Origin: a virus
Reading direction: 5' to 3' (one strand)
Length of the DNA: 30,635 bases
Virus record (IMG/VR): IMGVR_UViG_3300007516_000087
Coordinates: 1-30,635 of that record
Below the pieces are notes generated by a model. The model was not told where the DNA came from. It did no database searches and was given only the letters and a program-made list of their open reading frames with translations. Positions within the stretch are counted from its first letter, which is position 1. The number at the start of each line of letters is the position of its first letter. The position numbers and the translations under genes were made by a program. Below are positions 4,828 through 30,606 of the stretch, piece after piece.

Positions 4828-5184
4828 TTATTTCCTTTTCATTAATTGCTGAATCCGAGCTTCAATTGAATCTGCATCTTCAGGATCATAGCCTGAATGA
4901 TCTGCACTTGTTTCAATATCATCGTTTTCATCACTAATATGACGACCAATAACGTTTCCTTCATGTTGAGGATCGACAATCTTATCAGAATCACCTTTGA
5001 AGTCAATTCCTGTATCTTCTGTCATTTCTTTTACATGATCTTTCAATGATTTAGAATCTTTACGATCATTATGAGCATAAAGACTTTGAGTCATATGTTT
5101 AGAAGCCTCGCCATGTGCCCCTTTCAAGGCAGTAAGTTTAGCTTTCTTTTCATTTTCAGTCATTGGTTTTTTCTGGAACGCCAT
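4828..5184 (-). CDS. Small charged protein, paralogue of the next gene, 118 aa
   Basis: The protein begins MAFQKKPMTENEKKAKLTAL and continues KGAHGEASKHM, sharing its N-terminal block and its C-terminal helix (EARIQQLMKRK) with the 164-residue protein encoded immediately downstream. The middle is hydrophilic, with acidic and His residues and no Cys or membrane segment. It is the first gene after a strong copy of the intergenic box (5207-5215), which lies about 23 bases upstream of its ATG, so this small gene probably heads a transcription unit that also carries the paralogue, the adaptor and the nozzle. The family is unknown to me. The conserved Lys-rich block at the front and short amphipathic helix at the back would suit a protein bound through its ends to the capsid or tail, but that is inference. 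Confidence 0.8.
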   Translation of the reverse strand: MAFQKKPMTENEKKAKLTALKGAHGEASKHMTQSLYAHNDRKDSKSLKDHVKEMTEDTGIDFKGDSDKIVDPQHEGNVIGRHISDENDDIETSADHSGYDPEDADSIEARIQQLMKRK

Positions 5185-5189
5185 TTTTT

Positions 5190-5215
5190 ATCCTATTGTT
5201 TCTATTAGTTGTTAA
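5190..5215 (-). promoter_or_regulatory. Intergenic promoter-like element (boxes TTAACAACT + ATAGAAAC)
   Basis: Read on the minus strand this is TTAACAACTAATAGAAACAA followed by TAGGAT. TTAACAACT (5215-5207) overlaps the TAA stop of the 446-residue fibre gene (5214-5212), and ATAGAAAC follows within a few bases. The first 20 bases are identical to the copy at 27819-27800. No -10 element occurs at a fixed distance in other copies, so a phage-specific promoter is preferred over a host sigma70 promoter. The GGAT next to the start of the 118-residue gene probably serves as its ribosome site. Confidence 0.6.
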
Positions 5216-6552
5216 ACTGATGTAGTTATTGCTCTAAATTTGATCAACCCGCTAACAAACCCTGCATATGCCGCTGAGGTATATTGTACTTGACCAGATG
5301 AAGTGATTGAGAATACAATTCCCGACGCATCTCCAGTAGAATCTACAGACATATTAAAAGAAACAGCCTTATTAATACCCTGAAGTGTAAATTGTTCATA
5401 TAAATCAGCAGTTGCGTCGATTTCTACGCTAGTTAAAGATGAAAAGCTTCTAACTGTTCCAACAGGAAATAAGAATCCAGTTACATTAGCAGGTGCAACT
5501 TGGTTATTAGCTAAAGAAAACGATGTCTCTACTATATCTCCAGCAGAAACTCCAGTAGCTGGGATAGTAAAAAAGCCTTTAGTGCCAGCTCCGTCTGTAC
5601 CATAGTACTTAGTATTACCCGGGCTTGCAGCATCACCTGAGAGCTTTAAACCACTCGCATCTGACGTAATAGACATTTGACTAATAACATCAGCAGATAT
5701 ATCTTGAGCAGTAAGAGTTAAATTTACTGTAGCTGTATCAGTTACAGTAACATCCCCAGAGTTTGTTCCAGAAGTGTTTCCCACAATAACTAATTGTGCG
5801 TCAGTTACATATCTAGCATTAGTACTATCTGCGACGTTAGCGGTAGTAAGTACTACTACCCCAGTCTGACTATTTACAGACGTAACAGCATCTGTCATGT
5901 CCCATTTATCCCAAGTAGTTCCATTATAGGCAACTTTATCACCTGCATTGAAAACTTGTGCCCCTGCTCCGAAATTCACAGTACCAGAATCAGTTACATA
6001 ATAAACAGAACCAGAGGTTCCAGCTCCGTCTGCAAGAGCAGGAGTATTTGTAGATGCTGCCCAAACTCCAGCATAGAAAAATGGACTTGGGATTGCTTCA
6101 ATAAATGTTTCAAGGGATTGTAAGGCAGCCTTAATAGTAGAACTATCTGGAATTGTTGTCCCAGTAAATGTTCCAAGGTTGGTAGAGTTAACTAAGACTC
6201 CAGTAAGAGTCACTAAATCAGCACCAATAGCACTGATACCATCGATATCACCCTGTAGTTCATCAAAAGCAGCTTGAACTTCAGTTGAAACTAAGTTACC
6301 TGATGGAGTTACAGAAATAGCAGTAGCAGCATGGGCTGCAGTTGCATTACTAATATGTGCAGTTAAATCAGCTTGTGAAGCTTTAGCATCTATTTGACCT
6401 TGGATTGCTGAAGTAACTCCAGAAACATGTCCAAGTTCAGTAGTTGTAACTGAACTGGAAGTAATTTCTTTATTAGAGTCAATTGTTGCAACCCTACTTG
6501 CGGTTTCTGTCTCTAACCGAACTTTACCTTTAAATTTACGTAGATCACTCAT
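5212..6552 (-). CDS. Tail fibre-like protein, 446 aa
   Basis: An ATG start with TAGGAG upstream. The N-terminal 60 residues are polar and probably carry the virion-attachment or trimerisation start. Residues of about 64-106 are a module (AHISNATAAHAATAISV, then SGNLVSTEVQAAFDELQ and DIDG) that recurs in the 1485-residue fibre at about residues 107-146. The middle contains repeated short phrases typical of trimeric fibre shafts, such as YYVTDSGTVNFGAGAQVF and VTSVNSQTGVVVLTTANV. The last 110 residues are a compact beta-rich domain that probably makes the tip. It is the last of four fibre-type genes transcribed together from about 12.7 kb. A receptor-binding or fibre role is likely; the receptor cannot be guessed. 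Confidence 0.7.
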   Translation of the reverse strand: MSDLRKFKGKVRLETETASRVATIDSNKEITSSSVTTTELGHVSGVTSAIQGQIDAKASQADLTAHISNATAAHAATAISVTPSGNLVSTEVQAAFDELQGDIDGISAIGADLVTLTGVLVNSTNLGTFTGTTIPDSSTIKAALQSLETFIEAIPSPFFYAGVWAASTNTPALADGAGTSGSVYYVTDSGTVNFGAGAQVFNAGDKVAYNGTTWDKWDMTDAVTSVNSQTGVVVLTTANVADSTNARYVTDAQLVIVGNTSGTNSGDVTVTDTATVNLTLTAQDISADVISQMSITSDASGLKLSGDAASPGNTKYYGTDGAGTKGFFTIPATGVSAGDIVETSFSLANNQVAPANVTGFLFPVGTVRSFSSLTSVEIDATADLYEQFTLQGINKAVSFNMSVDSTGDASGIVFSITSSGQVQYTSAAYAGFVSGLIKFRAITTSV

Positions 6553-7757: not shown

Positions 7758-10700
7758 TTAGTTACTCACTTTTACTATTTCTAGATGGTGGGAAGTTGTT
7801 GATGAAGCCAATGTCATAGCCTGTCCCGTTCTAAGTGACACAATATCTCCTTTATTCAGTCTTCTATTTATTGAGAACGGATGAGTAGAGGCACTTTCGT
7901 TACCAGATAATAAATAAGATAAAGTAGAGTTCACATATATAGATATAGCTCTCGCCCCAGCGGCACTAGCGGCTATACAACCAGAAAATGAATATACCCC
8001 TGTTTCAGGAATTGTATATTGACTTCCATTCCATGACCCATGCGTATCAGATATATTTATAAAAGGAATATTAGTTACGTTAACTGTCATAACTTCAGCA
8101 GCATTACCAGCACTCTCTGAGTAAACTCGACCCACTCCAATTCCAACAAGCGCGGGATTTTTTGAAGCGTTGATTACGAGGTAGCCTGAAGTTTGTGCAG
8201 AAACGTCTGTGAACTGGAAGTTAGAAGCTGTTGTTGAAGAATTCCCTTTATGTCCTGCGTCAACAACTAATACTCCTGTAACTTCATTGTACCCTTTATT
8301 AAAAATACCGATTTCAATAGCGGAACTAATAACTGAAAAATCTAAATTCCCAGCAGTAACCTTCCCAGCACTCTTGTACAAGTCTAAGCTCTTCCCCTTC
8401 AGCCCTTTCCCAATCTGTATTGCAAAAGCCACTGGCTGAGCCGCAGAACTTAGTACGTTGTAAGCTCTAGTGTAAATCAGCATACCATTAGTATTCATAT
8501 CTGCAGTAGTCTGAGTAGGAGCTGTCGTAGTCTGTGTTCTAGTGTTGGTACTAGCAGCGTATGTATATGTAATGAAAGTTCCAACAGGAGCATTTGCTAA
8601 CGTAGCAAGTGTATAAGCAGCAGAACCTGCGTAAGCTAATGGAGCGGTGTCTGTGGAGAATGTTTCGGGAGCTGTTAGGATTTGGTCTGCTGATCCAGTG
8701 AAAGATATATTAAAGTTATTCTCTCCATCGGATGTTACTGCTCCAGAAGTACTGACTCTTAGGGTATCTCCAACTTCCACTGAAGTAGAAGCAGCTACTG
8801 TACATATAGCCGTTGCAGCATACGCTTGTGACGAAGATAGTGTCTCAGAGGCGGTAGGCGTAGCAGTTAATACTGCTTGGTTCTTACTAAGATATATCTG
8901 AGAGTTAGCTGTTGTTAAAGACAAGCTAGAACTAAAATATACTATACCGGCTCTCAACATTGTTATGAAAGTTCCATCATTTGCGGTATCTGTTATACTA
9001 AATGAGTCCCCTACATACCTAACCCTAGTTGTTAATTTTACAATAGCAGTGGCAACTGCCCCGCGAGATGAAGCCCCTTCATATCTTAAATAGGAGGTAG
9101 TAGGCTGCGGTACGTTTACAAAAGGCGTGACATTCACGCCGGTTACATTCGGCTTTCCAACTTTCGACATTGTGAAAATAGATTGAGCAGCAGTACCAGA
9201 TGCTACTCCTTGTGCATGAGGACGAATAGTATCCCCAGCTACTAAATATACTTGAGTGCAAGCATTATCGTTTACTGTATTGGCTGTTGTAGTTCCGTAA
9301 GCAACTCTTTCAGATGCAGATAAAGCATTAAAATTTGTAACTAAACTAGAAGCATTCTTACTAATACCCATATCTGAAGCCGAAACAAAGTTATCAGTAT
9401 ATGAGATGTTATATAAACCATCACTTTTCGCAGTAAAACTCGCTCCATTCGTTGCACTATCAACATACTCAACATCTACACCGATATTATCGCGAGTGTT
9501 ACTGAACCTACGAATCTTCGTACCAGTACTTCCATAGCCGTTAGCTGTGTCAACGCGAACTGAAGAGTCTGATTCAGAGAACTGTGGAAGTGTGTTTGAT
9601 ACTGATACGGAAATGTCTTGCTCTTGGAAGTATAGATTCAGTACGTTTGAGATATCCGCAACGATTACCGTTGGAGATGCTACTCTAATTATATCGCCAA
9701 TAACTACAGAACCAGACCAACTTGCGGATAATATATCATTAGTCCCTGTTGTATACTCAGCGGCTAAACTCTCTGATGCTGAGGGTACTCCAGTTCGTGT
9801 TACTTGGTTTCTAGATATGGATAACTGTCTAGAAGTAGCTGTTCCATAAATGTTTGTCCCAACATCAAGCTTACCAGCTTTCAACATCGTAATTACTGTA
9901 CCAACAGTTGCATCACTAACTACAGAAAAAGCATCTCCACGAATTATAGCTTGAGTGTCGAAGCGTACAATAGCCGTATTTGCTCCAGTTCCGCGAGTAG
10001 ACGCACCTTCGAAGCGGAGTTCGGAAGTGGGGATTGTGATTTTTGAATTTGGGTTTATGGAAACTTGAGAGAGTGAGCCTTGTTTTGTGATTGTAATCTG
10101 TGCTGCCGCAGTTGAAGCACCTGATGTTGTAGTATCCGCATGAGGACGAATTACATCTCCTGCGTTTAAATAACCAGTCCATGCAACTTGAGAACTTAAA
10201 TTTACAGCTGAAGCTGAAGCTTTTATAAGTCTATGCTCAGTAGTAATTGTATTAATACCAGTAGTCAGTTGATTTGAGTTTTTAGATAAACCAAAGTTAG
10301 CTGCGGAACTAAAGTTATCTGCATATGAGAATGAATAGGTTCCAGAGGTTACAATTGTAAAACTAGCACCTAAAGTAGCAGAGTCTACATACGTTACATC
10401 GGAACCTAAGTTCTGAGTAATATTTGTGAATCTACGAATAGTAGTATTTGTAGAGCCATATCCATTTGAAGTATCCAAACGGAGCATACTATCAGCACTC
10501 TGAATTAACCCACTCTGAGTTAACGGAATTGTGTTAACAGAAGTTGCTGAAAGTCCTGTAATTGGTATAGTAAATTCTACAGATATAACTCTACTTGCTC
10601 CGAATATTGCGGAAGCGTTGGTTGGGGTTAAGTTTGGAGCATTTGTCACCATCTGATTTCCAAAATAAACCAAAGATGTACTTGTAGCTGTTGCAGTTAC

Positions 10701-12847: not shown

Positions 12848-14089
12848 TTAAGCGTTGTTAACAATTCCAGAAACCAATACTGATTTACCCGGAGCCATAC
12901 AGAATACAGCTTGGTCAGTATAAAGTCTAAGTTCGTAAGCAGCAGCATTTTCAAGATCGCGGAAGAACTCGTCTCCATAACCCGGACGCTTAAAGCTAAT
13001 ATCACTAGAACCAACTCTCATGAACTCTTCAAGAGAAAGACCGTAAGCGTATCCTTCTTTGATATAGATAGATGGGATGATTTCAAGCTCACCATTCTGA
13101 GAATGGAACTTGAGTGATTTCGCACCGTTCTGAAGTTGAGAAGTTGTATACGATTGATCGTACATACGTAAAGCAGCTTGGTCATTCAATAGATCAGCCC
13201 AACCACGAGGGTTGACGAAGAAAGTCAATTTAGAATCCAAACCTTTTTCAACCGGACGAGAAGCAGCTTTTGTCAATTTATTGAAAGACAATGCTCCAGC
13301 CGCAGGATATGTGTTACCTTTCCATAGGTTATACTGAGTAGCGTTGATGTTGAATAGAGTACCAGTGTTTATTAGAATCTTGTGGATACCAGCAAACTCG
13401 TTACCGTAAGCACCTTTATGGTAAATTACGTCTGTAGCTACAACACCAGCTAACTGAGCTGAAGCATTAAGAGTAATTGTACGAGCGTCCATATCAACAG
13501 AAGCAATAGTGAACTCACCACGAGAAGTCGCGCCTGTTACATCACGAATTTCAATTGGCATACCTTCACCGCCAGCCCAAATACCCGGAGCCCATTCAGC
13601 AGTCGTAACAGTTATTGTAGTTGTAACTGCAGAAGCTACAGTTCCGTAACCAATTTGACCGTAAAGAAGGTGAATCTCAAGTTTTTTAGACATAGAGCGA
13701 AGCATGTTAGCAACGATATACTTCGTAGCGTCCATGAAAGCATTTTTTCCGCCAACAGAACGAGAAGCAGCAGAGTAACCGAGCAATGAACGCATAACCA
13801 TAGGGTTACCACGAACTTGAGCGTCTCTGATTTGTCCAGCAACAGCCGGGTTAAGGTTAAAAGCATCGTCATCAGAAGATGCGAAAGTAACACCGTGTTC
13901 AGCACCAAGAATTACTGGTTGGTGATACAGATTTCCGCCTTGTTTCTCTTTACCAATGAATTTAATCATGTTAACGAGTTTAAGACCTTCTGGGATAAGT
14001 TCTTGAAGTTTATCGGCATATACTTCTTTAAAAAAGCCGTTCAGATTGCCAACGGCGTTATCTGGAGTTGAAAATTTGTTAGTTGACAT
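12848..14089 (-). CDS. Major capsid protein, 413 aa
   Basis: The protein begins MSTNKFSTPDNAVGNLNGFF. It has the make-up of an HK97-fold capsid protein: an N-terminal helical arm, a glycine-rich loop (GAEHGVTFASSDDDAFNL), the long helix (KYIVANMLRSMSKKLEIHLL), a beta-rich middle, and a C-terminal part with FVNPRGWADLLNDQAALRMY, GYAYGLSLEEFMRVG and ENAAAYELRLYTDQAVFCMA. Residues of about 160-230 look like a small inserted beta domain (TITVTTAEWAPGIWAGGEGM onwards). It follows the decoration candidate and the scaffold-like gene, and a strong terminator follows it, as expected for the most abundant virion protein. The ribosome site is AGGAATAA. No separate capsid protease of the usual type is seen beside it. 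Confidence 0.85.
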   Translation of the reverse strand: MSTNKFSTPDNAVGNLNGFFKEVYADKLQELIPEGLKLVNMIKFIGKEKQGGNLYHQPVILGAEHGVTFASSDDDAFNLNPAVAGQIRDAQVRGNPMVMRSLLGYSAASRSVGGKNAFMDATKYIVANMLRSMSKKLEIHLLYGQIGYGTVASAVTTTITVTTAEWAPGIWAGGEGMPIEIRDVTGATSRGEFTIASVDMDARTITLNASAQLAGVVATDVIYHKGAYGNEFAGIHKILINTGTLFNINATQYNLWKGNTYPAAGALSFNKLTKAASRPVEKGLDSKLTFFVNPRGWADLLNDQAALRMYDQSYTTSQLQNGAKSLKFHSQNGELEIIPSIYIKEGYAYGLSLEEFMRVGSSDISFKRPGYGDEFFRDLENAAAYELRLYTDQAVFCMAPGKSVLVSGIVNNA

Positions 14090-24590: not shown

Positions 24591-26054
24591 TTACCGACGT
24601 TTAGGTCTAGAACCAAATATAGACATATAGACTTGTTTAGGGTCTAACTTCTCGTGACCTGTAGGATTTTGAATATGTAAGTCCCTGAGATTATAGCCAT
24701 AACTTGCTGGGTAGGGATTCTTATTATAATTAACAGCGCGGGTAAAATAAAGCAAAGCATCTACTGCATCGTAATGTCCATCGTCTGGAGATCGAGCAAA
24801 GTCATCTTTATTAGACTTATCCTTCCATCTACAATTCTTAATATGTCTTATTAATGTAGGACAACTTGGGCTTATAATGATCTTATGGTTAGCTAACATA
24901 ACTCGAAGTTTATTCAAGTGGGTTAACTTATCATGTTTAGCTGGGACTCCAAAATCTAACTGATGTAGAGGGTTGTTCTTTTTAGAGTAGATACTTATCT
25001 CTTGAATAACAAAAGGGTTAGTATCTGAAACCCTAGATTCGGGCTTTATTAGTTCATGGGTTAAGTCATTAGTCCAGAGTTCTATTTCTTTATCTTGTAG
25101 TAACTTAGTAAAATCAGGTAGATGAATCTCTTTTCCAGTTTTAACAATCTCATCTTGGATAACTAATCTATTCTCTTTAAAATCATAGTAACCATATAGA
25201 ACTACTGTCAAATCTTTAAATCCAATATCCATAGCCACATATCGACTATAGAATGGGGGCAATAAAGGATCGTATACAATCTTAGATAGAAGCTCGTCGT
25301 CAACCTCAGGAAGAACTGAAAGCTCCTCATCCTTAATAAGTTCACACATGAACTCTCGACGGAATCCAATAGAGTTAACTCCACCTTGGTACTGATCTAT
25401 AATGTTCTGAATTTGTTCAGGTTTGAGCATTGGATTATCATATACAGTCTTCTTGGTTAGAAGACCATTCATTTCAGATCGTTCTATATAAGTTATAAAA
25501 TCATGATCTGGTTCTTTAGGAGGACTGCTTGCTAAAATACATCGACCGCCGGAATGAATCAAAGTCGGCAATAATATATCTTTCATAATATCATCTAGTT
25601 TACCGACAAATCCAGCCTCGTCAACTAGAACTAAGTCTGAAGTCTGACCTCGTAATCTTTCTGCCGAGTTACCATCGGAACCAGCCATTTGAAGCTGGGC
25701 ACCATTTTTAAATACATATAGATATTGAGAAGGAATATACTCAGGCTTCATATCTTCAGGGCAGTCTTCTAGAATTTTCCGCATCTGGGGTTCAGCTAAT
25801 GTTTTAGCATGGAGCTTTGTATCCGTTAGATATTTGACGATAGCATTAGGTTTAGATATACAAACTGCAACTCCCATAGTAAGGAGAGCAAATGTCTTCC
25901 CAGACTGACGAGCTAGCAACCATACTAAAATAGAGTTGGGTGCTGACTTTTGATAAATCTCATACATCTCTTTCTGTAGAGTATGGAACTTATAATGAAT
26001 AAGATGACGTCTCCATAGTTCATGCTTAAGAGCAATCTTATTAATTTCAGCCAT
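24591..26054 (-). CDS. terL: Terminase large subunit (packaging ATPase and nuclease), 487 aa
   Basis: This enzyme pumps DNA into the prohead through the portal and cuts the concatemer. The ATPase part has Walker A LARQSGKT (residues 47-54), Walker B LVLVDEAG (141-148, with Asp145 and Glu146) and the coupling motif ILASSPP (173-179). The RNase H-like nuclease part begins with the first acidic residue Asp276 in AMDIGFKD and closes with a D-D-G-H-Y-D-A-V-D-A-L region near residues 424-434. The length agrees with podovirus-type large terminases, which lie between about 450 and 600 residues. The start overlaps the stop of the small-terminase candidate by one base, giving coupled translation. The host protein is not needed to identify the family; the packaging strategy cannot be told from this window. 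Confidence 0.95.
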   Translation of the reverse strand: MAEINKIALKHELWRRHLIHYKFHTLQKEMYEIYQKSAPNSILVWLLARQSGKTFALLTMGVAVCISKPNAIVKYLTDTKLHAKTLAEPQMRKILEDCPEDMKPEYIPSQYLYVFKNGAQLQMAGSDGNSAERLRGQTSDLVLVDEAGFVGKLDDIMKDILLPTLIHSGGRCILASSPPKEPDHDFITYIERSEMNGLLTKKTVYDNPMLKPEQIQNIIDQYQGGVNSIGFRREFMCELIKDEELSVLPEVDDELLSKIVYDPLLPPFYSRYVAMDIGFKDLTVVLYGYYDFKENRLVIQDEIVKTGKEIHLPDFTKLLQDKEIELWTNDLTHELIKPESRVSDTNPFVIQEISIYSKKNNPLHQLDFGVPAKHDKLTHLNKLRVMLANHKIIISPSCPTLIRHIKNCRWKDKSNKDDFARSPDDGHYDAVDALLYFTRAVNYNKNPYPASYGYNLRDLHIQNPTGHEKLDPKQVYMSIFGSRPKRR

Positions 26055-26866: not shown

Positions 26867-26875
26867 AGTTGTTAA
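26867..26875 (-). promoter_or_regulatory. Intergenic box TTAACAACT overlapping the endolysin stop
   Basis: The minus-strand box lies at 26875-26867 and overlaps the TAA stop (26874-26872) of the M15 gene. It is about 92 bases upstream of the holin candidate. The leader contains a small perfect inverted repeat (GGTC/GACC around 26827-26838). Like the 5207 copy, the stop codon supplies part of the box. Confidence 0.55.
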
Positions 26876-27405
26876 TATTTCCATCGTCTATATCCTACTC
26901 TTGTATCTAAATGTAAAAAATTAATAGCCACCCCAATACTAGTAAACTCACTAGAACATATACCTTCAAACGCTGAATTCATTCCAGACTTAGGTCTGCA
27001 GTCAACTGCGTCACCTAATTCGTGGGTTGACTTCTTAGCTACAACTGTCGACACTCCAGAGTTCCTTATGTCTTCTTGATGCTTAGTGCATCTATAAGCC
27101 GAAGTAATCACTAGGGGTTCGGCTACATCAATTCGGATCATTTCCAACTTATCTATTAAGTGACACGAAACCCTCTGCTCTACACAGTCTGTATATGAGC
27201 ACTGACAGGACAGTTCCTTTGTACTAAAGTGTTCAGACACCTTGAATACTTGTCCTTTATCCCAAAGGTAATAATTTTCTACTTCTCGTAACTGAGGTCT
27301 AATCTCCAAAGAGGGAGAAGTTACTTTCTTTGAGCTGGACTTGGATTCTGTGGTATGATAAGTCAACAGGCTCATTATTGTCTTTACAATTTCGCTTATA
27401 TTCAT
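26872..27405 (-). CDS. M15-type peptidase, probable endolysin, 177 aa
   Basis: The domain is a Zn-dependent peptidase of the M15A/VanY type: VSEHFSTKELSCQCS is the usual front of the family, and AEPLVITSAYRCTKHQ its core. His128 in STHELGDAVD with Asp135, and His165 in NFLHLD, are the expected Zn ligands. Such enzymes cut peptide cross-bridges in the cell wall. The ATG at 27405 has a very good GGAGAG site and is accepted even though it makes a 107-base overlap with the 101-residue gene in another frame. The first 30 residues (MNISEIVKTIMSLLTYHTTE) are not part of the enzyme domain. Seven or more Cys residues are unusual for a cytoplasmic enzyme. Confidence 0.8.
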   Translation of the reverse strand: MNISEIVKTIMSLLTYHTTESKSSSKKVTSPSLEIRPQLREVENYYLWDKGQVFKVSEHFSTKELSCQCSYTDCVEQRVSCHLIDKLEMIRIDVAEPLVITSAYRCTKHQEDIRNSGVSTVVAKKSTHELGDAVDCRPKSGMNSAFEGICSSEFTSIGVAINFLHLDTRVGYRRWKY

Positions 27406-27604: not shown

Positions 27605-27791
27605 TCTGCCTCTTCTGTTTAACTTGTAATTTAACACGTTTACACACGCAGTCAGGACAAGCCCTGCCCGACCACAATTTACCCTCAACATTAATGAATC
27701 TCTTATTACGTCCATCTGGGTAATAGCCGTCCTGTTTACGAACTTCTAACCCACTACACTTTCTACACTGAACTACATCTGACTCTTCCAT
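27579..27791 (-). CDS. Small zinc-ribbon-like protein, 70 aa
   Basis: Two Cys pairs are visible, CRKC at residues 9-12 and CPDC at about 45-48, spaced as in zinc ribbons, with an intervening basic loop (DGYYPDGRNKRFINVEG) and a very basic end (CKRVKLQVKQKRQNAKTRL). Similar short Cys-pair proteins are common in phages and often bind nucleic acid. The gene has an intergenic box (27811-27819) only about 20 bases before its start and an AAAGG site. The actual role, such as transcriptional control, is not shown by the sequence. Confidence 0.6.
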   Translation of the reverse strand: MEESDVVQCRKCSGLEVRKQDGYYPDGRNKRFINVEGKLWSGRACPDCVCKRVKLQVKQKRQNAKTRLNV

Positions 27792-27799
27792 AACAACCT

Positions 27800-27830
27800 T
27801 TGTTTCTATTAGTTGTTAAATGTTTCTATT
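27800..27830 (-). promoter_or_regulatory. Intergenic promoter-like element with doubled AATAGAAACA
   Basis: On the minus strand, AATAGAAACA occurs at 27830-27821, followed by TTTAACAACT and again AATAGAAACA. The ten-base repeat is thus duplicated 20 bases apart around a TTAACAACT box (27819-27811). The second half is identical over 20 bases to the element at 5215-5196. It precedes the zinc-ribbon gene. Confidence 0.6.
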
Positions 27831-27860
27831 AATAGCGAAGCTCTCTTTTTATATAGGTCA

Positions 27861-28367
27861 TTATATAAGGTTAAGTAACTCTGTCTGATTATCTAGTATG
27901 AACGCCTTAGTGTCGGCGTTTAAAGCATAAACCGGCAGCTTGAACTGATTGACCGTCCCGTAGTATGTTTCTATAAATAACTTAGCTTCAGCCTTTGTTT
28001 TAAACTTCCCCACCACCTTACTAACATCTCCTCGGGCTGTAACCAACTCTACATCCACGAACTTAAAATCCTTATTTGGTATAGCCCTTACCCTATATTG
28101 GATAGCCTTTCTGTACCCTTTCTGGAGAGTAGCAAAACCCATCCCAGTATACATATCCTTATAATACTCAGTATGAATCTTCAGTGTTTCTATATCAGCT
28201 CCCGCTGAAACTACTTTTATAGTTATCTCTGTCTGCCCGCGAAACTGCTTATATATAGAGTCCAGACTAGCACCCATACTGGTAGTATAACTGATAAGGA
28301 ATGACCTATCCTTGAATAGTATAATAACCCCAGATTGAGGTAACCCAAGCATGTCATCTAATCTCAT
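27861..28367 (-). CDS. Unknown protein, 168 aa
   Basis: The start codon overlaps the upstream gene's stop (ATGA). The front (MRLDDMLGLPQSGVIILFKD, then RSFLISYTTSMGASLDSIYK) is arranged like a small alpha/beta domain with a strand-turn-strand-helix order. It resembles distantly the start of GIY-YIG-type domains, but the G-I-Y...Y-I-G residues are not present, so I make no such call. The middle (YKDMYTGMGFATLQKGYRKA) and end (FKTKAEAKLFIETYYGTVNQ) are basic and helical. It lies at the front of the leftward genes. Two copies of the ATAGAAAC box fall inside its reading frame, at 27974-27967 and 28193-28186. Confidence 0.65.
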   Translation of the reverse strand: MRLDDMLGLPQSGVIILFKDRSFLISYTTSMGASLDSIYKQFRGQTEITIKVVSAGADIETLKIHTEYYKDMYTGMGFATLQKGYRKAIQYRVRAIPNKDFKFVDVELVTARGDVSKVVGKFKTKAEAKLFIETYYGTVNQFKLPVYALNADTKAFILDNQTELLNLI

Positions 28368-28555
28368 ATCTTTTCCCGCTTCTCAACATGTCCAATCCTA
28401 GATCGACGCCTCTTATTAAGCTTATACCCAACCCAACTAATAGCCGTCTCCTCTATATCAGAGTCAGATACCCGACTGGGACGTAGATCAGTAGCATACT
28501 GACAGGACTTCAAAGCCTCGTATGTATCTCTATATCGTCTTTTCTTCCTAGCCAT
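28364..28555 (-). CDS. Small basic protein, first leftward gene, 63 aa
   Basis: ATG 28555 (MARKKRRYRDTYEALKSCQY) is chosen; the frame also runs to a TTG at 28576, but AGGA is better placed for the ATG. The product is strongly basic at both ends (KLNKRRRSRIGHVEKREK near the end) and would suit a nucleic-acid-binding protein. It overlaps the next gene by four bases. It is the first gene reached by the leftward sigma70-like promoter (28708-28679), and the first intergenic box (28620-28612) lies about 57 bases upstream. Confidence 0.6.
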   Translation of the reverse strand: MARKKRRYRDTYEALKSCQYATDLRPSRVSDSDIEETAISWVGYKLNKRRRSRIGHVEKREKI

Positions 28556-28610
28556 ATAAATAAATCCTGTTTGCAATTGTCACATTGTATTACTAAGTGA
28601 TATCCATGTA

Positions 28611-28635
28611 AAGTTGTTAACGTTATCGACAACTT
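28611..28635 (-). promoter_or_regulatory. First intergenic box, embedded in an inverted repeat
   Basis: TTAACAACT on the minus strand occurs at 28620-28612. Here AAGTTGT (28611-28617) is mirrored by ACAACTT (28629-28635), so the box sits in an imperfect palindrome with an 11-base centre. Only this copy shows the second arm. It lies in the leader of the leftward genes, 59 bases downstream of the sigma70-like promoter, and could be an operator as well as a promoter. Confidence 0.45.
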
Positions 28636-28678
28636 AGCTTATCCAAAAACACCATGTTTCTATACCCCACAATGATCT

Positions 28679-28708
28679 AATATACTGAAAACACACACAC
28701 CTTGTCAA
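28679..28708 (-). promoter_or_regulatory. Leftward sigma70-like promoter
   Basis: Minus strand TTGACA (28708-28703), an 18-base spacer that contains a GT run, and TATATT (28684-28679). The -35 is perfect and the -10 has five of six consensus bases. It would start a transcript near 28672, upstream of the first intergenic box and the 63-residue gene, and so could be the early promoter read by the host polymerase. Confidence 0.55.
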
Positions 28709-28846
28709 GCTAAATCTCTGTCCTTATATATGTAACATTTCCACCCATCCTAAAAAGGGGTCCCGACCATCCCAATTAACCGACCCACTCAGTACCCTAA
28801 CCCACCATCTGTAGATAACAGAACACCATATAGGAAGGATTTATAG

Positions 28847-28885
28847 CCCCCTCCCCTAATAACCCTAGCTCCCCCACCCCTACCC
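28847..28885 (-). repeat. Potential G-quadruplex tract
   Basis: The plus strand has CCCCCTCCCC (28847-28856) and then CCCTAGCTCCCCCACCCC with TACCC after it (28863-28885). On the minus strand this gives G-runs of 3, 4, 5 and 3 with loops of 2, 1 and 5 bases, plus two further G-runs, so it meets the usual four-run rule for a G-quadruplex. CCCTAGCT is itself repeated (28863-28870 and 28883-28890). Confidence 0.55.
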
Positions 28886-29132
28886 TAGCTTAAAACCCAT
28901 TTAAAGAAGTTAAGGGGAAACCTTTAGGAAGGGGATTCTTAACTAGCATATATAAAATATATATTAATACTAGCTACTACACGCGAGGAGAATAGTTTCT
29001 ATATTTGTAAGTATCTAAATTTGCATGTGTAGGTACTCGTAACATTGCACATACGTTTGTCCCATAGGGGGGTACTATATCCAAACAATCTAGCTACTTA
29101 GCCTACTGTTAGCCATACCTAACGACTGTAGG

Positions 29133-29186
29133 ATACCTATGCCTACCTTCGGGTATATATACCTATAGTTTGGGGACTATACCTAT
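29133..29186 (+). repeat. Three copies of ATACCTAT
   Basis: ATACCTAT occurs at 29133-29140, 29159-29166 and 29179-29186, spaced 26 and 20 bases. A TACC-TTCG-GGTA tetraloop and a TATAG/CTATA hairpin lie between or across the copies. They may be short protein-binding sites; the number and the regular arrangement are suggestive, but the local base bias reduces the weight. Confidence 0.4.
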
Positions 29187-29380
29187 GGCATGGGTTAGTG
29201 AATATACGTAGCAGACCTAACTAGTTGATAATACTTAAGTACATAGATACCTTACCTAATATCTATACCTTACATCATATCGTTCTGGTGGTATGTCATA
29301 TCAATAGCTTATATACACTATCCAATGTTATCATATACTTACATAGTTACTATACTACATATATAGATATATAGTGTTAT

Positions 29381-29444
29381 GGTGCCACTATGGCTCTATA
29401 TGGTGTCACTATGGCTCTAGTTTGGTGCCATTATGATACTGTCA
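29381..29444 (+). repeat. Iteron-like triplet 1 (21-22 bp direct repeats)
   Basis: Units start at 29381, 29402 and 29424: GGTGCCACTATGGCTCTATA, then GGTGTCACTATGGCTCTAG plus TTT, then GGTGCCATTATGATACTGTC. The period is 21-22 bases, or two helical turns, so a bound protein would meet all units on the same face of the DNA. Confidence 0.7.
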
Positions 29445-29452
29445 ATTATATG

Positions 29453-29468
29453 TTAGACAGTTGTCTAA
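29453..29468. promoter_or_regulatory. Palindrome TTAGACA-GT-TGTCTAA between the repeat triplets
   Basis: TTAGACAGTTGTCTAA has perfect seven-base arms around a two-base centre. It lies between the two iteron triplets (8 bases after the first, 50 before the second). Such a dyad fits the site of a dimeric repressor or initiator. Confidence 0.55.
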
Positions 29469-29518
29469 TATGTGTACAGTGGTGGTATTTTTGCTAAGCC
29501 CTTGATATTGCTATATGT

Positions 29519-29579
29519 AGTGTCGTATTGACTCTAGTTTGGTGCCATATTGACTCTAGATAGTGACATAATGCACCTA
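29519..29579 (+). repeat. Iteron-like triplet 2 (22 bp direct repeats)
   Basis: Units start at 29519 (AGTGTCGTATTGACTCTAG plus TTT), 29541 (GGTGCCATATTGACTCTAG plus ATA) and 29562 (AGTGACATAATGCACCTA, degenerate, 12 of 18 positions agreeing). They match the first triplet in the form R-GTG-Y-CA-x-x-x-TG-x-CTCTA. The same 22-base period is kept, so the two clusters are one family. Confidence 0.65.
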
Positions 29580-29621
29580 TGCACTAGTAGCCCGTTTACC
29601 TGATATCAGCTACTTAGATAC

Positions 29622-29638
29622 TTGGCACGGTTGATGCA
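29622..29638 (+). promoter_or_regulatory. Sigma54-like -24/-12 element, upstream copy
   Basis: TTGGCACGGTTGATGCA. GG and GC are separated by ten bases, as required for the -24 and -12 dinucleotides of RpoN promoters; TGGCACG is consensus, and TTGC is changed to ATGC. It lies about 45 bases after the last iteron and 64 bases before a better copy. Confidence 0.4.
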
Positions 29639-29685
29639 ACTACCCTTTCAACAACGACAAGCTGAATAAGTGAGTCGAACAAGCC

Positions 29686-29702
29686 TTGGCACAACGATTG
29701 CA
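29686..29702 (+). promoter_or_regulatory. Sigma54-like -24/-12 element, downstream copy
   Basis: TTGGCACAACGATTGCA fits the RpoN pattern TGGCAC-N5-TTGCA with the right GG to GC distance. A start near 29712-29714 would give a transcript covering the rightward genes, including the earlier ATG (29792) of the membrane peptide. No activator gene is visible in the window. Confidence 0.45.
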
Positions 29703-29780
29703 AGGTTAATAACATGAAGCTTGAATCGGTAAAACGAGTTAAGCATTTAAGTTAAATATAACATGATGTTATGCGAGAAG

Positions 29781-29809
29781 TTGACAGAAAAATGAATCGG
29801 TGTTATTAT
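29781..29809 (+). promoter_or_regulatory. Rightward sigma70 promoter
   Basis: TTGACA (29781-29786), a 17-base spacer and TATTAT (29804-29809). The -35 and the spacing are consensus and the -10 has five of six bases. The predicted start, near 29816, is followed by a TAAAAGC/GCTTTTA hairpin (29827-29846) in the leader and then by the small rightward genes. Confidence 0.7.
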
Positions 29810-29935: not shown

Positions 29936-30148
29936 ATGAGTAAAAACAGAAAACGAGTGTTCCCTAAAAAGCCTATACCTTTTCACTCTGGACTAGAGAA
30001 GGAACTAGGAAAAAACTCAAACAAAGTATGTTTTGAGGCTTCTCTTAAGGGTATATATAACGCTGAAAAGGTTATAATTCCCTTAACAGATAAACAAAAA
30101 AATCAGTTAGTGGCATTAAAAAGAATGCTACTGGAAAGGAAAGTGTAA
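29936..30148 (+). CDS. Small basic rightward protein, 70 aa
   Basis: A protein beginning MSKNRKRVFPKKPIPFHSGL, Lys/Arg-rich, with a C-terminal helix (LTDKQKNQLVALKRMLLERK). No ribosome site of note precedes the ATG, but it follows the membrane-peptide stop with no gap (TAA-ATG), so it is probably expressed by translational coupling. I do not recognise it. Its reading frame is in the same rightward operon as the next gene. Confidence 0.6.
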   Translation: MSKNRKRVFPKKPIPFHSGLEKELGKNSNKVCFEASLKGIYNAEKVIIPLTDKQKNQLVALKRMLLERKV

Positions 30149-30422: not shown

Positions 30423-30606
30423 AAGGCGAAACGGTTTAGGTTCGATGACCTATTAAAGTGAGAAGTACGATTCTCACGCCGTATAAGGGTTAAGCCCTTA
30501 CTGACGAGCCTAAAGCATCAAACGGCTGAATTAATCCGTTAATGCGATAGAATGAAACGGCTATCTGTTTATAATCAAAATAAAGCCCTGAAAATATCAG
30601 GCGGCA
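30423..30606 (+). other. Structured intergenic segment with multiple hairpins
   Basis: No gene is seen here. Hairpins on the plus-strand RNA are TAGGT/ACCTA (30437-30452), GTGAGAA/TTCTCAC (30458-30477, seven pairs), TAAGGG/CCCTTA (30484-30500, six pairs) and CCTGA/TCAGG (30587-30601). GCCGT (30478-30482) can pair with ACGGC (30522-30526), which would enclose the third hairpin and the sequence CTGACGA (30501-30507). Alternatively, 30515-30543 can form GCAT/ATGC plus AACGG/CCGTT. No terminal T-run follows any of the stems. Confidence 0.5.

Follow-up and report, generated by a model that had tools for sequence, protein, structure and literature searches.

The closest described arrangement is the NorR/norVW system. 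Three tandem NorR sites with the core GT-(N7)-AC lie upstream of a sigma-54 promoter (PMC1274295). NorR requires the three enhancer sites and forms a hexamer there (PMC2941729). The gap between norR and norV of E. coli K-12 holds the GTCA-N3-YGAC dyads GTCAATTTGAC, GTCATATCGAC, and GTCATTTTGAC at 21- and 24-bp steps, and these are followed by TGGCACGCAATCTGC (TGGCAC) 66 bp after the third core. Two broader systems are also pertinent. NtrC-class sigma-54 promoters combine a rigid -24/-12 element with tandem dyads upstream on one helical face, and the other system is the iteron arrays of lambda-O-like/HTH_36 phage initiators.

The DNA analyzed here, an IMG/VR virus record, is 30,635 bases long, and this whole stretch is termed the window. 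It shares with NorR/norVW three tandem inverted repeats with a GTCA-N3-TGAC-like core, a spacing of 21-24 bp, and, about 60 bp farther along, a TGGCAC-N5-(N)TGC element (its distance from the last dyad center is 61 bp in E. coli and 53 bp in the window). In contrast to NorR/norVW, the window belongs to a phage genome, has two triplets and two candidate promoters, and carries no norR gene. Of the six window units, just unit 4 (at 29518) retains the GT-N7-AC core, and the outer arms TRG...CYA of the window dyads are not a NorR feature. The window is thus not a proven NorR target, given a core in one of six units and no norR or enhancer-binding gene in 12 phage records, and we do not name NorR as the activator because its core is not kept. 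The locus resembles the general NtrC-class promoters, but here the arrangement occupies a divergent hub central to lytic-type phage genomes. The full texts searched, which take in only a minority of subscription journals, contained no report of a sigma-54 enhancer-promoter hub in lytic-type phages. The dyads have the same sequence and period as arrays at HTH_36 genes in the loci L089, L092, and L096; however, the window array sits in a gene-free hub beside -24/-12 elements, and there is no initiator gene in the window or common to its relatives.

The divergent hub

Virion and lysis proteins are encoded by the leftward genes of the window, and small rightward genes start to the right of the gene-free interval 28577-29770. 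A sequence-only reading of this DNA had placed the repeats in a gene-free hub between divergent genes, and that location was borne out, with leftward genes on one side and rightward genes on the other. The features of the hub and its surroundings are as follows, where L003 is the relative locus described below.

12848-14089, leftward: major head protein
24591-26054, leftward: terminase
26872-27405, leftward: M15-type endolysin
27861-28367, minus strand: hub-flanking gene of 168 aa, conserved in L003
28577-29770, no strand: gene-free divergent hub holding all elements, with no listed open reading frame of at least 50 aa; syntenic in L003
28679-28708, minus strand: sigma-70-type promoter TTGACA-18-TATATT, facing the structural genes; inspection by eye shows the matching region of L003 to be conserved
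29781-29809, plus strand: sigma-70-type promoter TTGACA-17-TATTAT, towards the early genes
29936-30148, plus strand: first of the conserved early genes read rightward (70 aa), lying beyond the promoters, with a homologue in L003

The cumulative GC-skew minimum of the window falls at 29358, inside the hub, and the skew check that the sequence-only reading had proposed places the minimum at the hub in every near-complete genome. Skew cannot separate an activator array from a replication origin because gene direction also flips at the hub, and it was rejected as proof of an origin for this confounding.

Megablast and blastn returned no close relatives of the window among phage records, and a search of viral contigs found no relatives of the hub-flanking protein P0001. 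Among isolates, the best relative is a Silvanigrella phage, at 27-28% protein identity (portal 27%). As a clue to the host this phage was uninformative, having one strict -24/-12 match and no sign of an array. Two minor features recur in the hubs. A run of 6-10 G or C lies left of the array in the window (29067-29072) and in most hubs of both phage groups described below, judged by eye in L104, L106, and L108. The element TTTCTATA occurs twice in the window hub (28657 and 28996), in the L003 hub, and in many relatives; it is embedded in larger stretches of conserved non-coding DNA such as TTTCTATATTTGTAA...ATTTGCATGTGTAG.

A tandem array of dyads

Six 19-bp units span 29380-29579 in two triplets, with steps of 21, 22, 95, 22, and 21 bp.

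29380-29398, plus strand: dyad unit 1, TGGTGCCACTATGGCTCTA
29401-29419, plus strand: dyad unit 2, TGGTGTCACTATGGCTCTA
29423-29441, plus strand: dyad unit 3, TGGTGCCATTATGATACTG
29518-29536, plus strand: dyad unit 4, TAGTGTCGTATTGACTCTA
29540-29558, plus strand: dyad unit 5, TGGTGCCATATTGACTCTA
29561-29579, plus strand: dyad unit 6, TAGTGACATAATGCACCTA

The two repeat triplets with a 21-22-bp period noticed earlier are far above chance by pattern scan and by shuffling. The pattern TRGTGYCAYTATGRCTCTA with up to three mismatches has five matches in the whole window, all in the array, compared to 0.11 expected. Tandem Repeats Finder scores 88 at 29378-29435, and the period-21 self-similarity of the hub was matched by none of 300 dinucleotide shuffles. 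Each unit is itself an inverted repeat. When each left arm was compared with its reverse-complemented right arm, agreement over 24 units averaged 4.5 of 8 positions, the control mean being 2.0, and the observed symmetry was never equalled in 2000 permutations. The units are dyads of the form TRGWGYCA-N3-TGRCWCYA in tandem, not simple direct iterons. Units 3, 4, and 6 have diverged from units 1 and 2. Of the parts said to be shared by the repeats, CTCTA is present in only four of the six units.

An inverted repeat lies between the triplets.

29453-29468, no strand: inverted repeat TTAGACA-GT-TGTCTAA, probably unrelated to the array

Its description as a perfect palindrome did not hold, the 16 bp having a non-palindromic GT center. 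A shuffled hub is expected to contain about 1.3 palindromes whose arms measure 7 bp, which puts it at chance level. It is off-center, 28.5 and 66.5 bp from the nearest dyad centers, with no counterpart in L003 and no clear one in the relatives. A role as repressor operator was rejected on the grounds of chance level and lack of conservation.

Sigma-54-type elements beside the array

Two -24/-12 elements overlooked in the sequence-only reading lie to the right of the array.

29622-29639, plus strand: sigma-54-type (-24/-12) promoter element, TTGGCACGGTTGATGCAA, conserved in relatives
29686-29703, plus strand: second sigma-54-type element, TTGGCACAACGATTGCAA, following the first at a distance of 64 bp (L003 has 65 bp here)

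Both are perfect matches to TTGGCAY-N6-TGCAA, about 43-44 and 107 bp past the array end, where 0.26 matches with up to one mismatch are expected in the whole window. The spacer is rigid. Among 13 phage hubs, TGGCAY-Nk-TTGC occurs 22 times at k=5 and not once at k=1-4 or 6-10, and TGGCAY-N5-TTGC is found only four times in 797 kb outside hubs. Three strict matches outside hubs were read in context, and all are inside genes. A looser -24/-12 pattern gave 32 matches in 9.0 kb of hub compared to 53 in 721 kb elsewhere, a density ratio that is flattered because some hub boundaries were set after the sites had been seen; the spacer test is unaffected. The sigma-54 consensus has a T before TGG and a G after TGGCAY. 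At these positions, which were left free in the search, T precedes TGG in 72% and G follows TGGCAY in 62% of cases.

The L003 hub has four strict matches, two of which correspond to the window pair in position and spacing. The elements are upstream of genes and point at them in the window, L003, G003, L104, L106, and L108. The exceptions are L018 and L021, which have mixed orientation, with five to seven -24/-12-like elements within about 150 bp. Such crowding in both orientations is unusual for promoters. The array-free G002, G009, G010, L018, and L021 still have -24/-12-like elements, and G011 and G012 have a -12 element of TTGA, not TTGC.

Array and element in relatives of the window

Terminase searches yielded 44 loci. 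L003 (in G001, 60,490 bases) has a terminase 67% identical to that of the window and a syntenic hub, which holds the 19-bp unit of the window at 21/22-bp steps. A position matrix detected unit clusters in G003, G004, G011, and G012 and, less regularly, in G005, and a separate pattern scan added L094/G013 to the array-bearing set. Unit spacing, whose conservation the sequence-only reading had put forward as a check, is kept in relatives. A symmetric matrix run on 14 phage records placed clusters of at least two dyads at hubs only, except for one module and one weak pair in G005. The G005 module joins three dyads to an element and precedes another gene.

In the window and in the six hub-containing relatives with dyad clusters (G001, G003, G004, G011, G012, and G013/L094), the array is followed after 34-66 bp by a -24/-12-like element that points away from it; G001 and L094 have such an element on each side of the array. 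A strict pattern that demands a pair of dyads and an element, correctly ordered and spaced, matched three times in the real genomes and never in 15 randomized sets. Helical phasing between array and element in this first group gave R 0.77 (Monte Carlo p about 0.001-0.003, post hoc), and adding three independent loci from the second group below gave R 0.53 (p 0.02). Phasing was downgraded from strong to suggestive evidence once these loci were included.

A second phage group with the same arrangement

Scans for a dyad plus an element identified L104, L106, and L108, which have 40-50% terminase and adaptor identity among themselves and no tblastn match to the window group at E 1e-4. Each has three to four dyads and then a -24/-12 element (TTGGCACGGCAATTGC, TTGGCACGCAGTTTGC, or TTGGCATTCTGTTTGC), located in the divergent hub between the terminase genes and the early genes. 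The scans also returned L105 and L107, each with only one dyad, and these may be chance finds. In L104, tandem GCGCGATAAGGAGCCGTGTAC repeats at about 8640-8820 adjoin the dyad array on the left. The presence of array plus element in two groups without detectable protein similarity is simply explained by a trans-acting factor shared through the host. More tentatively, and at slightly less than even odds, we suggest that phage groups without detectable protein similarity may each have acquired independently, or passed between them, a host-type module of enhancer and sigma-54 promoter as a genome master switch, with infection gated by a stress-sensing enhancer-binding protein of the host.

A proposed enhancer for sigma-54 promoters

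The dyads, their periodicity and conservation, the rigid -24/-12 elements, and the constant place of these elements by the arrays in two phage groups suggest that the array is probably an upstream enhancer at which a host-encoded enhancer-binding protein would drive sigma-54 promoters. Each 19-bp dyad would be occupied by a dimer of an AAA+ activator from the NtrC/NorR class of bacterial enhancer-binding proteins, probably a host product. On a single helix face, three such dyads in tandem could seat one hexamer, and the two triplets possibly two. Host sigma-54 RNA polymerase would wait at 29622-29639 and 29686-29703 to be acted on by these hexamers, and switching on the activator would start rightward (early) transcription beside ordinary sigma-70 promoters. 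Good sigma-70 promoters are present on both sides, so sigma-54 would be an additional control and not the only one. From anatomy and conservation we infer the action of sigma-54 and an enhancer-binding protein at the hub, and the protein's identity, its signal, and the timing proposed here have the same basis.

The activator is assigned to the host because none was detected in the phages. No match to the enhancer-binding protein family (PF00158) exceeded the cut-off in the 12 phage records, and no phage-encoded sigma-54 was found in the window or G001. The sole phage candidate for an activator is a ClpX-like AAA+ protein in G001, below cut-off; this 310-aa protein (27621-28553 of G001, in L007) was identified by eye from its sequence. 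A host search by terminase and portal among 84,980 bacterial genomes found none.

If the proposal is true, a phage genome is placed under ATP-dependent, signal-gated bacterial transcription, instead of or beside sigma-70 or a polymerase of its own. Phage success would then depend on a physiological signal of the host, and the module would offer a ready test of reading host state. Its recurrence in two groups would also be a handle on the host, whose sigma-54 operons should bear the same dyads.

Competing readings of the array

The sequence-only reading had left two explanations side by side, an array of activator sites for the promoters to its right and iterons plus an operator at a replication origin. 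The former is better supported, by sigma-54-type promoters and an enhancer-like build. The latter becomes less likely: the repeats turn out to be dyads, the array is not accompanied by a constant initiator gene across relatives, and the palindrome is nothing out of the ordinary.

The main rival reading has the dyads as sites of a phage winged-helix protein (HTH_36/lambda-O-like), forming an origin or regulator array separate from the sigma-54-like elements, and it holds this position because unrelated phages carry the same dyads at HTH_36 genes. Arrays of 19-bp dyads with a period of about 22 bp lie inside or just after HTH_36 genes in L089, L092/L090, and L096, all outside the window group, and show the same GYCA/TGRC variation; these phages were found by a two-tandem-unit pattern scan, and the pattern forced part of the resemblance. 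Their HTH_36 matches have E values of 4.5e-8 to 8.9e-8, and the dyads there are not accompanied by sigma-54 elements. The usual place of origin iterons is inside or after the initiator gene. The arrays are at 8788 in L089, 3242 in L092, and 2079 in L096, and those of L096 and L089 are read through as protein. Within the window group, HTH_36 proteins of 104-107 aa occur in G011 and G012 and an 85-aa weak match in G001, and none occurs in the array-free G002, G009, and G010. However, the array-bearing G004, G005, and G013 have no HTH_36 or Phage_rep_O match. No protein family was present in all array-bearing and in zero array-free genomes; the exceptions look unrelated, and each misses a member. 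The coincidence of the hub with the skew minimum in all near-complete genomes would suit an origin, but skew follows gene direction too. Since this reading also leaves unexplained the constant adjoining -24/-12 element, the second module of G005, and the pairing in the second group, we consider it unlikely, if the most serious of the alternatives.

A hub that is both an origin and a promoter hub is less probable still. Here a phage regulator would read the dyads for another type of promoter, and TTGGCAY-N5-TTGC would be a second protein-binding site that merely resembles -24/-12. The packing of elements in both orientations in L018 and L021 is what a binding-site array would look like, and the strict matches outside hubs, where examined, fall inside genes. 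Yet the spacer of exactly 5 bp fits the sigma-54 consensus, as do the T preceding and the G following TGGCAY, neither of which the search imposed. In the window, L003, G003, L104, L106, and L108, moreover, the array-proximal elements are directed at genes and away from the array. Chance or degenerate repeats without function, a reading to which only the divergence of units 3, 4, and 6 from units 1 and 2 lends itself, are very improbable in view of the shuffle tests and are already refuted, since relatives (50-67% protein identity) and the unrelated group alike conserve the unit, its period, and its position.

Other sequence features

A candidate hammerhead-like RNA lies at 30476-30563 of the window on the plus strand, with CTGACGA and GAAAC boxes and a helix III of GCCG/CGGC; its Hammerhead_3 match is sub-threshold (16.9 bits, cut-off 48.5). 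The early arm of the relative L015 has a Hammerhead_II match above cut-off at 5870-5938, and type III hammerhead-like sequences were seen by eye in L003 (about 5140-5190) and G005 (about 59050-59150). Repeats at uneven steps, GTTACAATATT in L025 (200-900) and GTTACTATATT in L021 (3600-4300), are present many-fold and lie largely within the gene adjoining the hub.
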